Made by a program: the position numbers and the translations under genes. Positions 21,401 through 30,874 of a stretch of 35,991 nucleotides of DNA are shown here, piece by piece (the first letter of the stretch is position 1; every line of letters begins with the position of its first letter). The stretch comes from Bacteroidota bacterium (GTDB taxonomy: Bacteria > Bacteroidota > Bacteroidia > Flavobacteriales_F > PHOS-HE28). The stretch covers positions 1 to 35,991 of the forward strand of contig JAFEAI010000143.1 of the NCBI GenBank assembly GCA_018266475.1. Direction: 5' to 3'. Below the pieces are notes generated by a model. It ran no database searches. It was not told the origin of the DNA and was given only the letters and a program-made list of their open reading frames with translations.

Positions 21401-23071
21401 ATGCAACGGACCATGCGCTGGTTGGCCCTTCCGCTGCTCGCTGCACTGGCCACGCCGGCGGCACTACATGCGCAAACAGCACCGGCCACCTACTGGGTGC
21501 AGTTCACCGGCAAGGGCCATACACCATACAGCCTGGCACAGCCTGAAGCCTACCTGGGGCCGCGTGCGCTGGAGCGCCGCGCGCGCCAGCACATCCCCAT
21601 CGACTCGTTGGACCTGCCCGTGGACCCGGCCTACATCGCCCAACTGCACGCCGCCGTGCAAATGCAGGTGCTCAATGTGAGCAAGTGGCTGAACGCCGTC
21701 ACCATCCGCAGCACGGACACCCTCGGACTCGACAGCCTGGGCCTGCTCCCCTTTGTACACGTGGTAAAGCTGACGCAAGATGGCCGTGGGCGGCCAACCG
21801 CCATGGCCAACAAATTCCCGCAGGAAAGGGCCACCTACCAGCAGCTCTACGGATGGTCGCTGCGGCAGATCGAAATGATGAACGGCCACCTGCTGCAGCA
21901 AGTGGGCAATGCCCTGGGCCAGGGCATGCTCATCGGCGTGCTCGATGCCGGCTTCCTGGATGCCGACATCCTTCCGGGCCTGGCCAGCCTGCGCGCACGC
22001 AACGGCATCGTACTTGCCAGCGACCTGGTGGACCATGGGGCGGATGTGTTCCGTGCGCACTACCACGGCCGCAGCGTGCTCTCCGTGATGGCCGGTGAGG
22101 TGCCCGGCAAGCTGGCCGGCACCGCGCCCTTGGCAAACTACGCACTGGTGCGCACCGAGAACGCCGCCACCGAATACATCGTGGAGGAGGACAACTGGGT
22201 AAGCGGCGCCGAGCTTTGCGACAGCATCGGCTGCGACGTGCTGAACACCTCCCTGGGCTACACCACCTTCGACGACAGCACGCAGAACCACACCTACGCC
22301 GACCTCAACGGCCACACCGCGCGCATGTCCATCGCCGCAGGCATCGCCGCGAAAAAGGGCATGATCCCCGTGAACAGCGCGGGCAACAGCGGCGCGCTGC
22401 CGTGGCACTACATCAGCGTGCCCGCCGATGCGTTCGACATCCTGGCCGTGGGCGCGGTGGACGCCGACCGCATGGTGGCCAACTTCAGCTCGCGCGGGCC
22501 CAGCGCCGACGGGCGCGTGAAGCCCGACGTGGCCGCCATGGGCCTGCACACCATCGGGCTTGATGGCGGCGGCTGGAACACCGGGCCCATCAATGGCACC
22601 TCCTTCGCCAGCCCGCTGGTGGCCGGCCTAAGCGCATGCCTGTGGCAACTGCACCAGGACCGCACCGCCCACGAGGTGATGGCCGCCATCCGCGCCAGCG
22701 CCTCCATCCACGACTCCCCCAATGACGACATCGGATACGGCATCCCCGATTTCTGGCGCGCGCACCTGCTGCTTGGCGGTCGCGACATCACCGGATTGTC
22801 CGCACCAACGGCCCTGGGCGTGATGCCCGTGCCGTTCACCAACTTCCTGGACATCGAGGTGTACGCCGGAACCGCCAATACCATGGACCTCCGCATCTGC
22901 GACATGCTCGGCAAGCAGGTGTGGGGCACATGCACCGGGCTGGAGCCGGAAACCTACGCCAGGGTGCGCATCCAGGACGACCTGCTCAACCGGATCCGCC
23001 CGGGGGCCTATGTGATCACCGTGCAGGTCGGTGATTCCAGGATCACCCGGCACATCGTGAAGGCCGAGTGA
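21401..23071 (+). CDS. Subtilisin-like S8 serine protease with T9SS tail
   Basis: A 556-residue exported peptidase. A signal peptide (residues 1-25, ending LHAQ) is followed by a prodomain-like segment and the S8 catalytic domain: Asp182 in GVLDAGFLD, His222 in HYHGRSVLSVMAG and Ser401 in NGTSFASPLVAG, with the oxyanion-hole Asn329 in NSAGNS. All catalytic residues are present. The C-terminal 80 residues form a type IX sorting domain (PVPFTNFLDIEV, LRICDMLGKQVW, GAYVITVQ), so the enzyme should be exported across the outer membrane. It is probably a nutritional or processing protease. It is coupled within the mnmA operon by gaps of 7 and 3 nt. Confidence 0.93.
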   Translation: MQRTMRWLALPLLAALATPAALHAQTAPATYWVQFTGKGHTPYSLAQPEAYLGPRALERRARQHIPIDSLDLPVDPAYIAQLHAAVQMQVLNVSKWLNAVTIRSTDTLGLDSLGLLPFVHVVKLTQDGRGRPTAMANKFPQERATYQQLYGWSLRQIEMMNGHLLQQVGNALGQGMLIGVLDAGFLDADILPGLASLRARNGIVLASDLVDHGADVFRAHYHGRSVLSVMAGEVPGKLAGTAPLANYALVRTENAATEYIVEEDNWVSGAELCDSIGCDVLNTSLGYTTFDDSTQNHTYADLNGHTARMSIAAGIAAKKGMIPVNSAGNSGALPWHYISVPADAFDILAVGAVDADRMVANFSSRGPSADGRVKPDVAAMGLHTIGLDGGGWNTGPINGTSFASPLVAGLSACLWQLHQDRTAHEVMAAIRASASIHDSPNDDIGYGIPDFWRAHLLLGGRDITGLSAPTALGVMPVPFTNFLDIEVYAGTANTMDLRICDMLGKQVWGTCTGLEPETYARVRIQDDLLNRIRPGAYVITVQVGDSRITRHIVKAE

Positions 23072-24099: not shown

Positions 24100-24753
24100 T
24101 CAACGCGCCCCGTTGCGCACGATGGGCACCGTGGTGTTGCGCTCGCGCAAATAGTGCTGGTACGTTTCGCTGTATGCGGCGCGGTGATCGAACACCTCCG
24201 CGAAGTTGCCCAGCAGGTCGATCACGGCTTCGCACCCTTCCCGGAGGCCGTTCTCACCACCGCTGCAAGCCGTCACCATATCCGCATCGCCGCGCTGCAC
24301 CACGTGATCGGTGAAGCGCTCACCGCCCCTGCGGCCTATCAGGATGCGCAATCCGCATTGCCGGGCCACGGAAAGATCGATGGCATCATCAAAGAAGAAG
24401 GCCACCTCCCGGGGCTGCAAGGCGTTTGCCCGCAGGAAATCCGCGAAGGCATCGGGCTTGTTGATGTAGCCCATGTACATGGCCTGAAACCGCTCGCGCC
24501 GCACGAATTTCCCAGCGATCGGATTGACCTGCCCGGTAAGTATTGCCGCCGGTGGGTTGGCCCTGTGCCGCAGCCATAGCGCGAAGCGCAACATGTTCAC
24601 GCCCATGCTGCCCACCTCACTGAACGGGCTGCCGCCGTCGAGGTCCTTCCAACCGTCGTTGAACACGCCGTCCCAGTCGAAGAGCACGGCCTTGATGCCG
24701 CGGGCGCGGTCTTTCAGGGCTTCAGGATCGTGCAGGTATCTGGTTGAGGGCAT
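24100..24753 (-). CDS. KdsC-like HAD phosphatase
   Basis: A 217-residue C0-type HAD hydrolase. Catalytic residues are Asp26 and Asp28 (FDWDGVFNDG), Thr73 (ILTGQ), Lys99 (NKPDAF) and Asp122-Asp123 (FFDDAIDL). The overall pattern, DWDGVFNDG then SMGVNMLRFA, ILTGQ and GGENGLREGCE, follows KdsC, which hydrolyses Kdo-8-phosphate, but the protein is longer (KdsC is about 170-190) and the sequence is divergent. It lies downstream of kdsA and the transaldolase-CBS gene on the same strand. It is called KdsC-like, not kdsC, because a phosphatase for a related sugar phosphate cannot be excluded. Confidence 0.72.
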   Translation of the reverse strand: MPSTRYLHDPEALKDRARGIKAVLFDWDGVFNDGWKDLDGGSPFSEVGSMGVNMLRFALWLRHRANPPAAILTGQVNPIAGKFVRRERFQAMYMGYINKPDAFADFLRANALQPREVAFFFDDAIDLSVARQCGLRILIGRRGGERFTDHVVQRGDADMVTACSGGENGLREGCEAVIDLLGNFAEVFDHRAAYSETYQHYLRERNTTVPIVRNGAR

Positions 24754-24758
24754 TCGTA

Positions 24759-24863
24759 GTCAGTTGTCAGTGTGCAGAAGGCATCACGCCCGTTTCCTGT
24801 GGTTACGGTCCACGATCGCAGTGCTGGTCGGCAGCCGTACAACTGACAACTGACAACTGACAA
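24759..24863. repeat. Intergenic inverted repeat (GTCAGTTGTCAGT)
   Basis: GTCAGTTGTCAGT (24759-24771) is matched by its exact complement ACTGACAACTGAC twice (24842-24854 and 24849-24861), so the 70-nt middle would be looped out of a long hairpin. It lies between the KdsC-like gene and the transaldolase-CBS gene, whose transcripts run through it. Similar simple GTTGTC-type motifs occur near 10180-10235. It is probably a dispersed repeat of the lineage; an attenuator role is possible. Confidence 0.7.
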
Positions 24864-24881
24864 TGGGCCACGGGCAACCTG

Positions 24882-25904
24882 CTACCCTGCGATCGCCTTC
24901 ATCAGGTCCTGGATGTCCAGCATGCCGAGCTGCTTCCCGTTCTCGCTTACGCTCAGCGTGTCCACCTTGTGCTCCTTGAATGCTTTCTGGGCCTCGTCCA
25001 GCAAGGCTTCGGGGCTGATGGTGAAGGGCGCGTTGAATTTCAGCGTGCTGAGCTTCTTCGCCAGGAATTTGTTGCCTTCCTTTTCGATGCCGCGGCGCAG
25101 CCCGCCGTCAGTGAACACGCCCACGTTCTTGCCCTTGGCATCCGCCACCATCACGGCACCGAAGCCATGCTTGGTCATTTCCACCAGGGCCTCGCTGACG
25201 GTGGCGCTGTCCTTCACCACAGGGTTGCTGCGCGAGAGCACGTCCTTCACCTTCATTGTGATCAGGCGCGTGTCCACATAGAACTGCTTGGTGCCGATGG
25301 CGGTGAAGTGGTTGTCGGTAAGCTGTTTCATCAGCTTCCAGGGCACGGTGATGGTGTGTACGCCCAGCTCCACCGCGTTGCGCACATGCTCCACGGTGCG
25401 CACGCTGCTGAACATGATCTTGGTGTCGTAGCCGTAGTAGTTCACGGCACGCACGCATTGCTCCACCAGTGCCAAGGCATCATGGCCCTGGTCCTGCAGG
25501 CGGCCTACCAGCGGGCACACGTAGCTTGCCCCGGCCTGCATGGCCATGTAGGCCTGCTGCAGCGTGTACACCAGGTGTACGTTCACCATGATGCCCTCAT
25601 TGCGCAGCATCTTGCAGGCACGCAGCCCTTCCAGGCTCACGGGGATCTTGAAGACGGTGGTCTCCTTCTTCAGGCCCATCTTCAGCTGGCGCTTGGCCTC
25701 CTTCACCACTTCTTCGGCGGTTTCACCCAAGGCTTCCACCTGCAGGATGGGCACCTTCTTGGCCAGGTCCAGGATCATCTTGTCGATGTCCTTCACGCCG
25801 CCGCGGTGCATGAAGGTGGGCGTGGTGGTGAGGCCGGTGAGGAAGCCGAGCTTGAAGGCTTCGTCGATCTCCTTGATGTCTGCGCTGTCCAAGTAGAGTT
25901 CCAT
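24882..25904 (-). CDS. Transaldolase/F6P-aldolase-type protein fused to CBS domains
   Basis: A 340-residue fusion. Residues 1 to about 207 are a TalC/FSA-type small transaldolase: MELYLDSAD, TTTPTF (TNPS equivalent), the Schiff-base lysine K86 in TVFKIPVSLEGL and LVGRLQDQG. Residues about 218-340 are a CBS pair resembling the C-terminal half of KdsD/KpsF arabinose-5-phosphate isomerases (KVKDVLSRSNPVV, VGVFTDGGLRRGI, LGMLDIQDLMKAI). FSA-type enzymes are about 215-220 residues and lack CBS domains. It lies between kdsA and the KdsC-like gene, the place expected for KdsD. Known FSA chemistry includes aldol additions to glyceraldehyde-3-phosphate; the physiological reaction here is not determined. 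Confidence 0.88.
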   Translation of the reverse strand: MELYLDSADIKEIDEAFKLGFLTGLTTTPTFMHRGGVKDIDKMILDLAKKVPILQVEALGETAEEVVKEAKRQLKMGLKKETTVFKIPVSLEGLRACKMLRNEGIMVNVHLVYTLQQAYMAMQAGASYVCPLVGRLQDQGHDALALVEQCVRAVNYYGYDTKIMFSSVRTVEHVRNAVELGVHTITVPWKLMKQLTDNHFTAIGTKQFYVDTRLITMKVKDVLSRSNPVVKDSATVSEALVEMTKHGFGAVMVADAKGKNVGVFTDGGLRRGIEKEGNKFLAKKLSTLKFNAPFTISPEALLDEAQKAFKEHKVDTLSVSENGKQLGMLDIQDLMKAIAG

Positions 25905-25959
25905 GTTGGGGATAATGCGTTGGGCTGTGAGTGGTCTTGTTGGGGCTTCTGTTGCTGAT

Positions 25960-26046
25960 CTGTTGCGTCGAACTGTTGCGTCGACCCAGTGGGTCGACTG
26001 TACAGCTCGACTGTACAGCTCGACTGTACAGCTCCGCTGTACAGCG
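25960..26046. repeat. Tandem and palindromic repeats (GACTGTACAGCTC)
   Basis: Two copies of CTGTTGCGTCGA (25960-25971, 25973-25984) lead into the palindrome TCGACCC-AGT-GGGTCGA (25981-25997), then three perfect copies of the 13-mer GACTGTACAGCTC (25996-26034) and a degenerate fourth (26035-26046). Each unit contains the palindrome CTGTACAG. The array ends exactly at the kdsA stop and lies upstream of the transaldolase-CBS start. Confidence 0.85.
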
Positions 26047-26892
26047 TCAGGCGGTCACGGGGTTTTCACGGTATTTCGCTTCCACGGCGTGCAGGTCCAA
26101 GAGGGGCTTGATGAATTCCTCGAGGTCGTATACGCAGAGCTGGCTGGCGGCATCGCACAGCGCGGTGCCGGGGTCGGGATGTGTTTCGATGAAGATGCCG
26201 TCCACGCCTGCGGCCACGCCGGCCCGTGCGATTGTGGGCAGGAACTCGCGGTTGCCGCCGCGCGGGTCGGCGCTGGGGATGCCGTACTTGCGGATGCTGT
26301 GCGTGATGTCGAACACCACGGGATAGCCCGTTTGGCGCAAGTGGTAGAAGGCACGGGGGTCCACCACGAGGTCGTTATAGCCCAGCACGAAGCCGCGCTC
26401 GGTGAGGATGATCTTGTGGTTGCCGGTGCTCTCGATCTTCTTCACCGGCTTGGCCATGTTGTCCGGGGCCAGGAACTGCCCGTGCTTCAGGTTGATCACC
26501 GCACCGGTCTTGGCGGCCTCGGTAACCAGCGTGGTTTGCATGCAGAGGTAGGCCGGGATCTGCACTACGTCGCACACTTCCGCCGTGGCCTTCACTTGGC
26601 TTGGGTAATGCACGTCGGTCAGCAGCGGGAACCCGAATTCCTTCTTCACCTTCTCCAGCATCTTCAATCCCTCGTCCAAGCCGGGCCCCATATAGAACTC
26701 CACGCTGCTGCGGTTGTCCTTCATGAAGCTGCTCTTATAGATCACGGGCACCTTGGTGCGTTCGCTCACTTCGCGCAGCTTCTCCGCCGTGCGCATCATG
26801 ATGCTTTCCTGCTCGATCACGCACGGGCCGGAGATCAGGAACAGCTGGTCACTGCCACAAGCGATGTTGCCTACATTGACGATCTTGGCCAT
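26047..26892 (-). CDS. kdsA: 3-deoxy-8-phosphooctulonate synthase
   Basis: Condenses arabinose-5-phosphate and PEP to Kdo-8-phosphate, the committed step of Kdo synthesis for LPS. The 281-residue protein has SGPCVIE with the metal-binding Cys24, KSSFMKDNRSS, the LLTDVHYPSQ segment, INLKHGQF and the late metal ligands around FIETHPDPG. Cys24, where metal-independent enzymes have Asn, suggests the metal-dependent class II form. It has its own -7 element (TAGCTTTG) that begins at the stop of the FAH gene. Downstream lie the transaldolase-CBS and KdsC-like genes. Confidence 0.96.
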   Translation of the reverse strand: MAKIVNVGNIACGSDQLFLISGPCVIEQESIMMRTAEKLREVSERTKVPVIYKSSFMKDNRSSVEFYMGPGLDEGLKMLEKVKKEFGFPLLTDVHYPSQVKATAEVCDVVQIPAYLCMQTTLVTEAAKTGAVINLKHGQFLAPDNMAKPVKKIESTGNHKIILTERGFVLGYNDLVVDPRAFYHLRQTGYPVVFDITHSIRKYGIPSADPRGGNREFLPTIARAGVAAGVDGIFIETHPDPGTALCDAASQLCVYDLEEFIKPLLDLHAVEAKYRENPVTA

Positions 26893-28463: not shown

Positions 28464-30788
28464 TCAGCGGGCCTTCAGTTTCACGTACTGGAACTTGCCG
28501 TACTTGGCCGTGTCCTTGTAGTCGCCTTGGTATTTGGGCCCTTGCACTAGGTGGTTCACCGAGCCCAGCAGCAGGTTTTTGGGGTCCTTGCCGGCGGCCT
28601 TCACAGCCTCCACCAGCTGCTTGCTGGCCTCTTCCATGCGGCTGTTGCTCAGGTTGTCGTTGGTGCCGTAGGTCTTGGTGGGCACATGCGAGGCACTGGC
28701 CTCGATGATGATGTTCACCGTGGCCTGCTTGTCCAGCAAGGCCACCACCTTGCTGACGAATTCCTGCCACTTGGGGTCGTTGGTGTCGATCGCCTTCTCG
28801 TTGTAGCCGTGGAATTTCACGAATTCCGCGCTGTAGGTGGCATCGGGGGTAACGTGCTTCTCCCCTTCCTGCTTGCGTTCCGCATCGGTTTTCGGGTTGG
28901 CCGCAGGCACCTTGCCCTTTACCGGAGCCTCCTTTTCCGTGGTTTCCTTGGTTACGGGCGTTTTCACGGAGGGTTCCTTGGCTCCCGTCTGGGCAGCACC
29001 TTTCGTTTCAGCCGGCATCACGGTGGTCAGTACATCCTCCTTCACGCCGCCTTCCACCTGCTTTTCTTTGCCCTTCACAGGCAGGCCCTTCTCCTTGCTT
29101 CCCGGAGGCGAACCCTTGGGCAGCTCCACCACACCGGCCGCACCGGCAATGGAGACCGGATTGAGGTATACCTCCTTATTGATCTCCTGGTAGGCGCTTT
29201 CGCATTCCACGAAGATGTCCTCCGTGTGGATGGTCTTGTCGTTGATGCGGTAATCGAGGTTGTAGTTCTTGCAGGGGGCCAGGATAGCCACGTACACCCC
29301 ATCGCGCTGGCGGGGCTTGTAGCTTTTCACTTCGCCGGTGGCCTTGTCGGTAACGTACAGGATGGCGCTGGCCGGCAGCTGTTCGCCGGGCGCGGGGATC
29401 ACAAAGCCCTTGAGCACGGCCAGGCCCTCGGTTTCCATCTCTTGGGGGAAATCCACGAAGTAGATGTCCTTCTCGCCGTAGCCGCCCATCTTGTCGGAGC
29501 TGAAATAGCCCCTGCGCCCGTCGGCGGTGGTTACGAAGAACACGTCGTCATCCACGGTGTTCAAGGGATAGCCGATGTTTACCGGTGTGCTCCAAGTGCC
29601 GTCGGCCTGCAGCTCGGTGCTGAAGATGTCGAACCCGCCCATGCTGTTGTGGCCGGTGCTGGAGAAATACATGGTGTGGCCGTTGGGGTGGATGAACACG
29701 CCGTCCTCCTCGTAGGGCGTGTTCACGGTGCGGCCCAGATTCTGCGCCTTGCTCCATTCGCCGTTGGGCAGCTTCACCACTCGGTAGATGTCGCGGCCGC
29801 CGTATCCGCCCGGGCGGTTGCTGATAAAGTAGAAGGTGTTTCCGTCCGCGCTGAGGGCACCGTGGGTTTCCCAGGACTTGGAATTGATGTCGCTGCCCAT
29901 TTTCACAGGGTCGCTCCACACCTCGCCCACCAGCTTGCTTTCGTAAAGGTTGCCGTCGCCCGTGTCATCGCGGTAGATGATCAGTGTTTGGCCATCGGCG
30001 GATACGTTGGAAGTGGCCAGGTGGCCGAATGGCGGGTTGATGTTCAGGGGCTCGGGCGCCTGCCACTTTCCATTGCGGTCCTTGTAGCTCACATAGATGT
30101 TCTCGAAGGGCAGGCCGGTCAGGGGGTCGATCACGTCCTGGTTGGAACTGTCCGGGCGGATGCGGCGGGAGGTGAAGAACAAGGCGTTTCCGTCCACGCT
30201 GATCACGGGGCTGAAATCTGGGAATGGCGAATTGACCACGGGCCCGATGTTGCTGATCTGGTATTGCTTGGGATCGGCCATCAGGGTGCGGGCATTGGCG
30301 GTTTGCACCAGGCCCTGCTGCGCAAGCGCCTTGAAGTCGTTGCGGTCGCCGGCCTCCGCGATGAATTTTTGGTAATAGGTGTCGGCCAGGTCGAACTGGT
30401 TGTTCAGGTGGTAGGCCTTTGCCAGCCAGTAATCCACCTCGATGGGGGCGTTGCGCTCCTTGGGGTCGAAGGGGTCGTAGCCGGAGGTGTTGAGCCCCCC
30501 GTAGCGGTTGGTGCGATTGGCTGCGGCAGCCACCAGGAACGGCATGGCCTTCTGCTTTTCATTGTACGAAAGCATGTAGGCCTGGCCCGCCTTCCAGTTG
30601 AGGTTGGCGTTGTTCGGGTCCTTGTCGATAAGCGTTCTCCACACCTCGGCGGCGGGGCCGTAGAAACGTTCCTCCATCAAGCGGCTGCCCTCCTCGAAGG
30701 TGGCGGTGCTTTTTTGCGCCATCACCCCTGCGGAGCCCAGGAGGTACAGGGCGAAGGTGGATGCGGCTGCGTACAAGGATCTCGTCAT
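28464..30788 (-). CDS. OmpA-family envelope protein with TPR and PD40 repeats (PorE-like)
   Basis: A 774-residue exported protein. A signal peptide (about 1-24, ending GVMAQ) is followed by a TPR-like region (about 25-170), PD40/WD40-like propeller repeats (about 180-460) such as FPDFSPVISVDGNALFF and GGYGGRDIYRV, a carboxypeptidase-regulatory-like beta domain, a Lys/Pro/Thr-rich linker and a C-terminal OmpA-like domain. This is the domain order of PorE, which anchors the type IX secretion machinery to peptidoglycan. The OmpA domain is divergent, keeping NDNLSNSRMEEASKQL but without the usual RAxxV form. Bacteroidota encode several paralogues, so PorE function is probable but not certain. Confidence 0.85.
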   Translation of the reverse strand: MTRSLYAAASTFALYLLGSAGVMAQKSTATFEEGSRLMEERFYGPAAEVWRTLIDKDPNNANLNWKAGQAYMLSYNEKQKAMPFLVAAAANRTNRYGGLNTSGYDPFDPKERNAPIEVDYWLAKAYHLNNQFDLADTYYQKFIAEAGDRNDFKALAQQGLVQTANARTLMADPKQYQISNIGPVVNSPFPDFSPVISVDGNALFFTSRRIRPDSSNQDVIDPLTGLPFENIYVSYKDRNGKWQAPEPLNINPPFGHLATSNVSADGQTLIIYRDDTGDGNLYESKLVGEVWSDPVKMGSDINSKSWETHGALSADGNTFYFISNRPGGYGGRDIYRVVKLPNGEWSKAQNLGRTVNTPYEEDGVFIHPNGHTMYFSSTGHNSMGGFDIFSTELQADGTWSTPVNIGYPLNTVDDDVFFVTTADGRRGYFSSDKMGGYGEKDIYFVDFPQEMETEGLAVLKGFVIPAPGEQLPASAILYVTDKATGEVKSYKPRQRDGVYVAILAPCKNYNLDYRINDKTIHTEDIFVECESAYQEINKEVYLNPVSIAGAAGVVELPKGSPPGSKEKGLPVKGKEKQVEGGVKEDVLTTVMPAETKGAAQTGAKEPSVKTPVTKETTEKEAPVKGKVPAANPKTDAERKQEGEKHVTPDATYSAEFVKFHGYNEKAIDTNDPKWQEFVSKVVALLDKQATVNIIIEASASHVPTKTYGTNDNLSNSRMEEASKQLVEAVKAAGKDPKNLLLGSVNHLVQGPKYQGDYKDTAKYGKFQYVKLKAR

Positions 30789-30835
30789 CGCTTTTGGATT
30801 CGGTGGCCCCGTTATGGGAGCCCAATGGTGGGTGG

Positions 30836-30843
30836 CTAATGTA
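30836..30843 (-). promoter_or_regulatory. -7-like element (TACATTAG) before the OmpA/PD40 gene
   Basis: TACATTAG differs from TAnnTTTG at one position and lies 47 nt before the ATG at 30788, after the stop of the E2 gene. The support is weak beyond position and match. Confidence 0.35.
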
Positions 30844-30874
30844 TGTTTTTTCCGCAATGCCCGGAATTATACGC

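Follow-up and report, generated by a model that had tools for sequence, protein, structure and literature searches.

How does a bacterium that makes Kdo obtain D-arabinose 5-phosphate (A5P) when no A5P isomerase can be found in its genome? Most Gram-negative bacteria cannot do without Kdo, and the first enzyme dedicated to its synthesis is A5P isomerase (KdsD). The window, by which we mean the whole 35,991-nucleotide stretch of DNA that was analysed, holds a collinear three-gene set on the minus strand, kdsA followed by a transaldolase-CBS fusion and a HAD phosphatase gene (24100-26892, Table 1). An earlier note had read these as KdsA, a transaldolase with a KdsD/KpsF-like CBS pair and a KdsC-like phosphatase on one strand, a description that held in full, coordinates included. 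The reading that we consider likely is that the fusion has taken over from KdsD as a non-orthologous replacement and is a class I aldolase-type enzyme with A5P as its product; both that product and the reaction are inferred, and there is no enzyme assay.

Table 1. Features of the kdsA-fusion-HAD cassette (positions in the window)
Feature	Position	Strand	Remarks
kdsA, fusion-associated KDO8P synthase clade	26047..26892	(-)	metal-type Cys24; signature D59, Y115, M118, H137, R201, Y203
Transaldolase-CBS fusion, 340 aa	24882..25904	(-)	proposed A5P-forming enzyme in place of KdsD
TAL/FSA (beta/alpha)8 barrel of the fusion, residues 1-212	25269..25904	(-)	domain match and fold
CBS pair of the fusion, residues 213-340, KdsD/KpsF-like	24885..25268	(-)	profile match
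Schiff-base lysine K86 codon of the fusion	25647..25649	(-)	K in 94/94 main-family fusions
H110 codon of the fusion (Thr in TAL/FSA)	25575..25577	(-)	invariant donor-site change
C130 codon of the fusion (Ser/Ala in TAL/FSA)	25515..25517	(-)	invariant donor-site change
Divergent KdsC-like HAD phosphatase	24100..24753	(-)	profile relation; catalytic motifs intact, substrate unknown
Four 13-bp tandem repeats, GAGCTGTACAGTC-type, in the kdsA-fusion gap	25994..26045	(-)	role unknown

The fusion joins two recognizable parts. Residues 3-201 match PF00923 (TAL_FSA) at 131 bits, against a gathering score of 27, and the C-terminal part contains two CBS stretches (58 bits). An AlphaFold2 model built from 27 sequences has a mean pLDDT of 91.6, and its barrel superimposes on transaldolases with a Z of about 29 (rmsd 1.7 for the T. 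acidophilum transaldolase). In a profile comparison, KpsF/KdsD fits the CBS half better than other CBS families do, and the closest PDB relative of this half is 4o9k, the CBS pair of an A5P isomerase, so the claim that it is the part normally joined to the KdsD SIS domain held as well. The KpsF/KdsD profile TIGR00393 aligns with the fusion solely at profile positions 153-267, which is the CBS half, and with the match so confined the SIS isomerase domain is absent from the protein. The fusion thus resembles KdsD/KpsF/GutQ (SIS plus CBS pair) in having the same kind of C-terminal CBS pair, with a TDGDLRR-like motif, and, judged by distribution, in its position in the Kdo pathway, with kdsA as a neighbor in some genomes, but the SIS domain is missing and the catalytic half is instead a Schiff-base (beta/alpha)8 barrel, unrelated to it. 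An assembly artefact as the origin of the fusion is ruled out by relatives encoded in 173 other DNA stretches. Across these relatives, kdsA lies directly upstream at 65/87 loci and the HAD gene downstream at 78/90. Chryseolinea serpens is one isolate that bears the fusion.

The catalytic residues of the barrel are kept. In an alignment of 94 main-family fusions, Asp6, Glu57, Lys86, Asn108, Arg135 and Ser167 are invariant; Lys86, whose retention the earlier note had already claimed correctly, we take to be the Schiff-base lysine, and Arg135 and Ser167 to be the phosphate-binding residues of transaldolases. The proposal of an FSA-type aldolase is refined here, since residue 57 is the transaldolase-type Glu and not the Gln59 of FSA. 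The donor side of the pocket is remodelled. Five changes are fixed in 94/94 fusions and differ from every transaldolase and FSA compared: Asn28 to Thr28, Thr109 to His110, Ala/Ser129 to Cys130, Phe/Tyr131 to Leu132, and Ala165 to Ser166 (first residue in FSA numbering). Three of these, T28, H110 and L132, replace the donor-site residues Asn28, Thr109 and Phe/Tyr131 of the fsa_talC_mipB equivalog (TIGR00875), for which the fusion scores 165 bits, under the cut-off of 246. The roles of the donor-side positions are known from FSA and TalB. For the residue alignment, the E. coli FSA sequence was entered by hand without a database record, and that of T. maritima was taken from a search result. The fusion therefore shares with TalC/MipB transaldolases and FSA the fold, the Schiff-base lysine, Asp6 and the phosphate-binding Arg and Ser, and with transaldolases also Glu57, but it differs from them in the five donor-side residues (T28, H110, C130, L132, S166), in carrying a CBS pair, in missing the TIGR00875 cut-off and in being tied to Kdo genes. 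As inferred from sequence alone, it still seems able to hold a phosphorylated partner (glyceraldehyde-3-phosphate, G3P, or a pentose phosphate) in a site whose donor pocket has been rebuilt.

The genome to which the window belongs, 3.57 Mb in size and 97.9% complete, encodes KdsA, KdsB and WaaA, and its Kdo pathway is complete apart from the first step. Searches with KpsF and SIS profiles did not find a SIS-type A5P isomerase (KpsF/KdsD) there, nor any unassigned SIS protein; the top KpsF match is the CBS half of the fusion itself, and the five SIS matches are two GlmS halves (assigned from a 615-aa frame with two SIS domains), a phosphoglucose/phosphomannose isomerase, GmhA and MurQ. The presence of GmhA, a SIS aldose-ketose isomerase, leaves room for the idea that A5P comes from an unrecognized enzyme, for instance by moonlighting of GmhA, with the fusion as a regulator. 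This is very unlikely: GmhA scores as a normal heptose isomerase, and a regulatory role does not need the Schiff-base lysine and phosphate site that are conserved in 94/94 fusions.

The genome also encodes a stand-alone ordinary transaldolase (293 bits with TIGR00875), and the fusion is therefore not needed as an enzyme of the pentose phosphate pathway; that it might be the sole transaldolase of the genome is ruled out. A related proposal, that the fusion is merely a CBS-regulated pentose-phosphate-pathway transaldolase that lies beside kdsA by chance, has in its favor the transaldolase-like fold and catalytic lysine. Against it stand the separate ordinary transaldolase and two patterns set out below that it leaves unexplained, namely the strict alternation with KdsD and the disappearance of the lysine in just those fusions that have no KdsA in their genome, and we regard it as very improbable.

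The distribution of the two proteins gives strong support to the earlier note's proposal that the fusion stands in for KdsD. The fusion, KpsF and KdsA were each used to search a sample of 197 Bacteroidia genomes with a completeness of at least 90%; this sample took the place of an earlier phylum-wide sample that was too thin for this class. As detected, the 147 KdsA-positive genomes comprise 118 with KdsD only and 29 with the fusion only, with none having both and none having neither. Two further genomes (G217 and G160) appeared to have the fusion without KdsA and were rejected as exceptions, as their kdsA genes are broken at contig ends; with these resolved, the counts become 118 KdsD, 31 fusion, 0 both and 0 neither. 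About a fifth of the sampled Kdo-making Bacteroidia thus have the fusion instead of KdsD. Fisher's test gives 1e-32 for this alternation, a value that is not tree-corrected and overstates independence, as the genomes are related. Nevertheless, the fusion is found together with KdsA in 12 families, and both states occur within four of them (f38, f43, f9 and f65), as well as in f3 when the phylum-wide sample is added.

A referee might object that kdsD was simply overlooked. The strong SIS matches in 32 fusion genomes are the two GlmS halves only, whereas each of four KdsD control genomes from the same families has a third strong SIS match of KdsD size; an overlooked kdsD is ruled out by the KpsF and SIS searches of the window's own genome and of these 32, with the KdsD-positive controls. 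The earlier note had held that a normal kdsD elsewhere in the genome, together with ordinary transaldolase-only activity, would count against it, and no such kdsD was found, leaving that claim unrefuted. Nor do the fusion genomes lack the Kdo pathway, a possibility ruled out by the presence of KdsB (over its cut-off in 36/37) and WaaA (34/37) in the genomes searched, a set of 35 fusion genomes together with G149 and G312. The one-to-one alternation is likely a non-orthologous gene displacement of KdsD by the fusion, and the distribution supports this strongly.

Frequent occurrence of the fusion in genomes without Kdo genes had been named as a second possible refutation, and it was not seen. 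Every genome with a catalytic fusion has KdsA, and the fusion occurs without KdsA in a single divergent family only, f36, with five genomes (G189, G219, G244, G268 and G289; L089-L093). These fusions are divergent (37-42% identity); their catalytic lysine is replaced by Arg or Ser and the phosphate-binding Arg is lost, with the CBS pair intact. The gene adjoins not Kdo genes but a conserved gene whose product has about 570-620 residues, and the genomes have KdsB and WaaA without KdsA. Since the lysine is lost where KdsA is absent, the catalytic lysine is retained only alongside KdsA. The f36 homologue is a pseudoenzyme of unknown role. Two other genomes, G149 and G312, both reported to be 100% complete, have KdsB and WaaA without KdsA, KdsD or the fusion, which could reflect gaps or possibly another route to the sugar. 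A locus of G312 (L142, G312:C2:301000-320000), from the same genus, has MnmA, an S8 protease, Aat and the HAD gene in order, without the fusion and kdsA; its surroundings diverge past the HAD gene, perhaps through rearrangement or misassembly.

The partner KdsA is distinct in its turn. It scores 331 bits with the KDO8P-synthase profile NCBIfam TIGR01362 (cut-off 314), and the PEP-side and catalytic residues K53, K58, N60, R61, K136, R166 and H198 are common to both KdsA types, so that by family cut-off and catalytic residues it is like a KDO8P synthase. It differs in that the KdsA proteins of fusion genomes form one separate clade (support 100/100), apart from the KdsA of KdsD genomes even within families, and in that six positions are fixed in 75/75 of them as D59, Y115, M118, H137, R201 and Y203, where KdsD-type KdsA and solved structures have, with few exceptions, A, F, R, K, Q and P, respectively. 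The KANRSS, PAFLxRQT and KKGQF motifs are consequently not kept, being altered by D59, Y115/M118 and H137 in all 75. Because the partner forms a clade apart and has invariant active-site changes peculiar to it, the fusion and KdsA are likely to be a co-adapted cassette, an inference drawn from sequence alone. The A5P pocket of KdsA includes Phe112 and loop L7 (PMC6650799), and the changes may point to a re-tuned A5P site or to a different aldose.

The latter possibility is one point against the A5P reading, as the invariant changes lie round the aldose pocket of the partner. In its full form, the rival holds that the cassette makes a different ulosonate, the fusion yielding another aldose phosphate, such as a stereoisomer of A5P, to which the altered KdsA adds PEP, and the product taking the place of Kdo in the lipid A core. 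The earlier note had allowed for such a related octulosonate, and we keep it as a rival, although an unlikely one. It is favored by the separate 100/100 clade, by the fixed changes (A to D59, F to Y115, R to M118, K to H137, Q to R201 and P to Y203) and by the location of Phe112 and loop L7 within the A5P pocket. Against it, the PEP-side and catalytic residues are shared with KdsD-type KdsA, KdsB and WaaA are retained, and the loss of an Arg at 118 could be made up for by the one gained at 201. In addition, in two fusion genomes, G242 and G272 (L156/L168 and L157/L167), the fusion-type KdsA is accompanied by an ordinary KdsA whose gene lies in housekeeping surroundings, and KdsD is lacking all the same. 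This coexistence may favor A5P as the product of the fusion, but contamination is not excluded.

Returning to A5P as the inferred product, Lys86 of the transaldolase-type barrel would form a Schiff base and yield A5P for the adjacent co-evolved KdsA. In the favored reaction, whose substrate pair the earlier note had suggested, a glycolaldehyde-derived enamine on Lys86 would attack G3P. This has chemical precedent, as E. coli FSA produces A5P from glycolaldehyde and G3P as side chemistry (PMC9947464, PMC6298115), but the reaction itself is inferred for the fusion. The transaldolase structure 3upb is, by its entry title, a covalent complex with A5P; together with the FSA chemistry, this indicates that this type of barrel can hold A5P as a Schiff base. 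The simple aldol version is weakened by the unknown source of free glycolaldehyde. The KdsD-like CBS pair would probably sense an end product such as CMP-Kdo and throttle flux, by analogy with KdsD; there are no ligand-binding data.

A close second is that the fusion is a Schiff-base pentose-phosphate epimerase, a possible sub-case of the same explanation with a different reaction, in which the Schiff base would turn ribose-5-phosphate (R5P) into its C2 epimer, A5P. Lys86 would bind C1 of R5P, followed by retro-aldol/aldol steps or by exchange of the C2 proton, in which H110 and C130 would serve as new acid/base groups. In its favor, H110 and C130 never vary among the main-family fusions and occur in none of the transaldolases compared, and free glycolaldehyde is not required. 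L-ribulose-5-phosphate 4-epimerase carries out epimerization on an aldolase framework, and in PLP synthase R5P is bound as a lysine imine, both of which lend the idea plausibility. Against it, to our knowledge the TAL/FSA family has no known isomerase or epimerase, and Schiff-base R5P epimerase activity is not known for any transaldolase-type barrel. The bolder readings taken jointly, that the cassette makes a non-Kdo octulosonate or makes A5P through such an epimerase, fall a little short of an even chance in our estimate.

If the fusion does make A5P, it would be a second natural origin of this sugar phosphate, in Bacteroidia that make Kdo without A5P isomerase, and would close the gap that this pathway shows in many genomes. 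It would also offer a naturally evolved catalyst for the aldol step to A5P, for which synthetic pathways now borrow E. coli FSA, and inhibitors of A5P isomerase would miss the bacteria that bear it. A report of a transaldolase-CBS fusion was not found in the partial literature searched; the parts belong to known fold families, and the papers found describe neither their combination nor the pathway role nor the co-adapted KdsA. With the relatives that have lost the lysine and with the re-tooled KdsA, the question is open to direct tests.

The third gene is KdsC-like by profile, as had been claimed, but it may not be the KdsC of the pathway. Used as a profile, the HAD protein matches E. coli KdsC (E=3e-19), a relation that extends across most of its length, and the HAD motif residues D26, D28, K99, D122 and D123 are invariant in its relatives. 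It differs from KdsC (YrbI) in being longer, in scoring 52 bits with the KdsC equivalog, far under the cut-off of 208, and in coexisting with a second, ordinary KdsC-type gene elsewhere in the genome (G000:C184). Because of that second gene, it is likely an extra KdsC relative of unknown substrate. Counting strong matches only (>260 bits), it is present in 27/30 catalytic-fusion genomes detected by the fusion search and in 0/118 KdsD genomes; as it is missing from three fusion genomes (G181, G214 and G240), it is not strictly needed.

A promoter-like site was looked for near the cassette genes and none was found. The 13-bp unit of the repeat array in the kdsA-fusion gap includes the palindrome CTGTACAG, and a second tandem array in the same gap has a different 13-bp unit in three copies (25948-25984). 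Close to the cassette are two genes typical of Bacteroidota, one for a subtilase with a type IX secretion sorting tail (21401-23071, plus strand) and one for a PorE/OmpA-like protein (28464-30857, minus strand).
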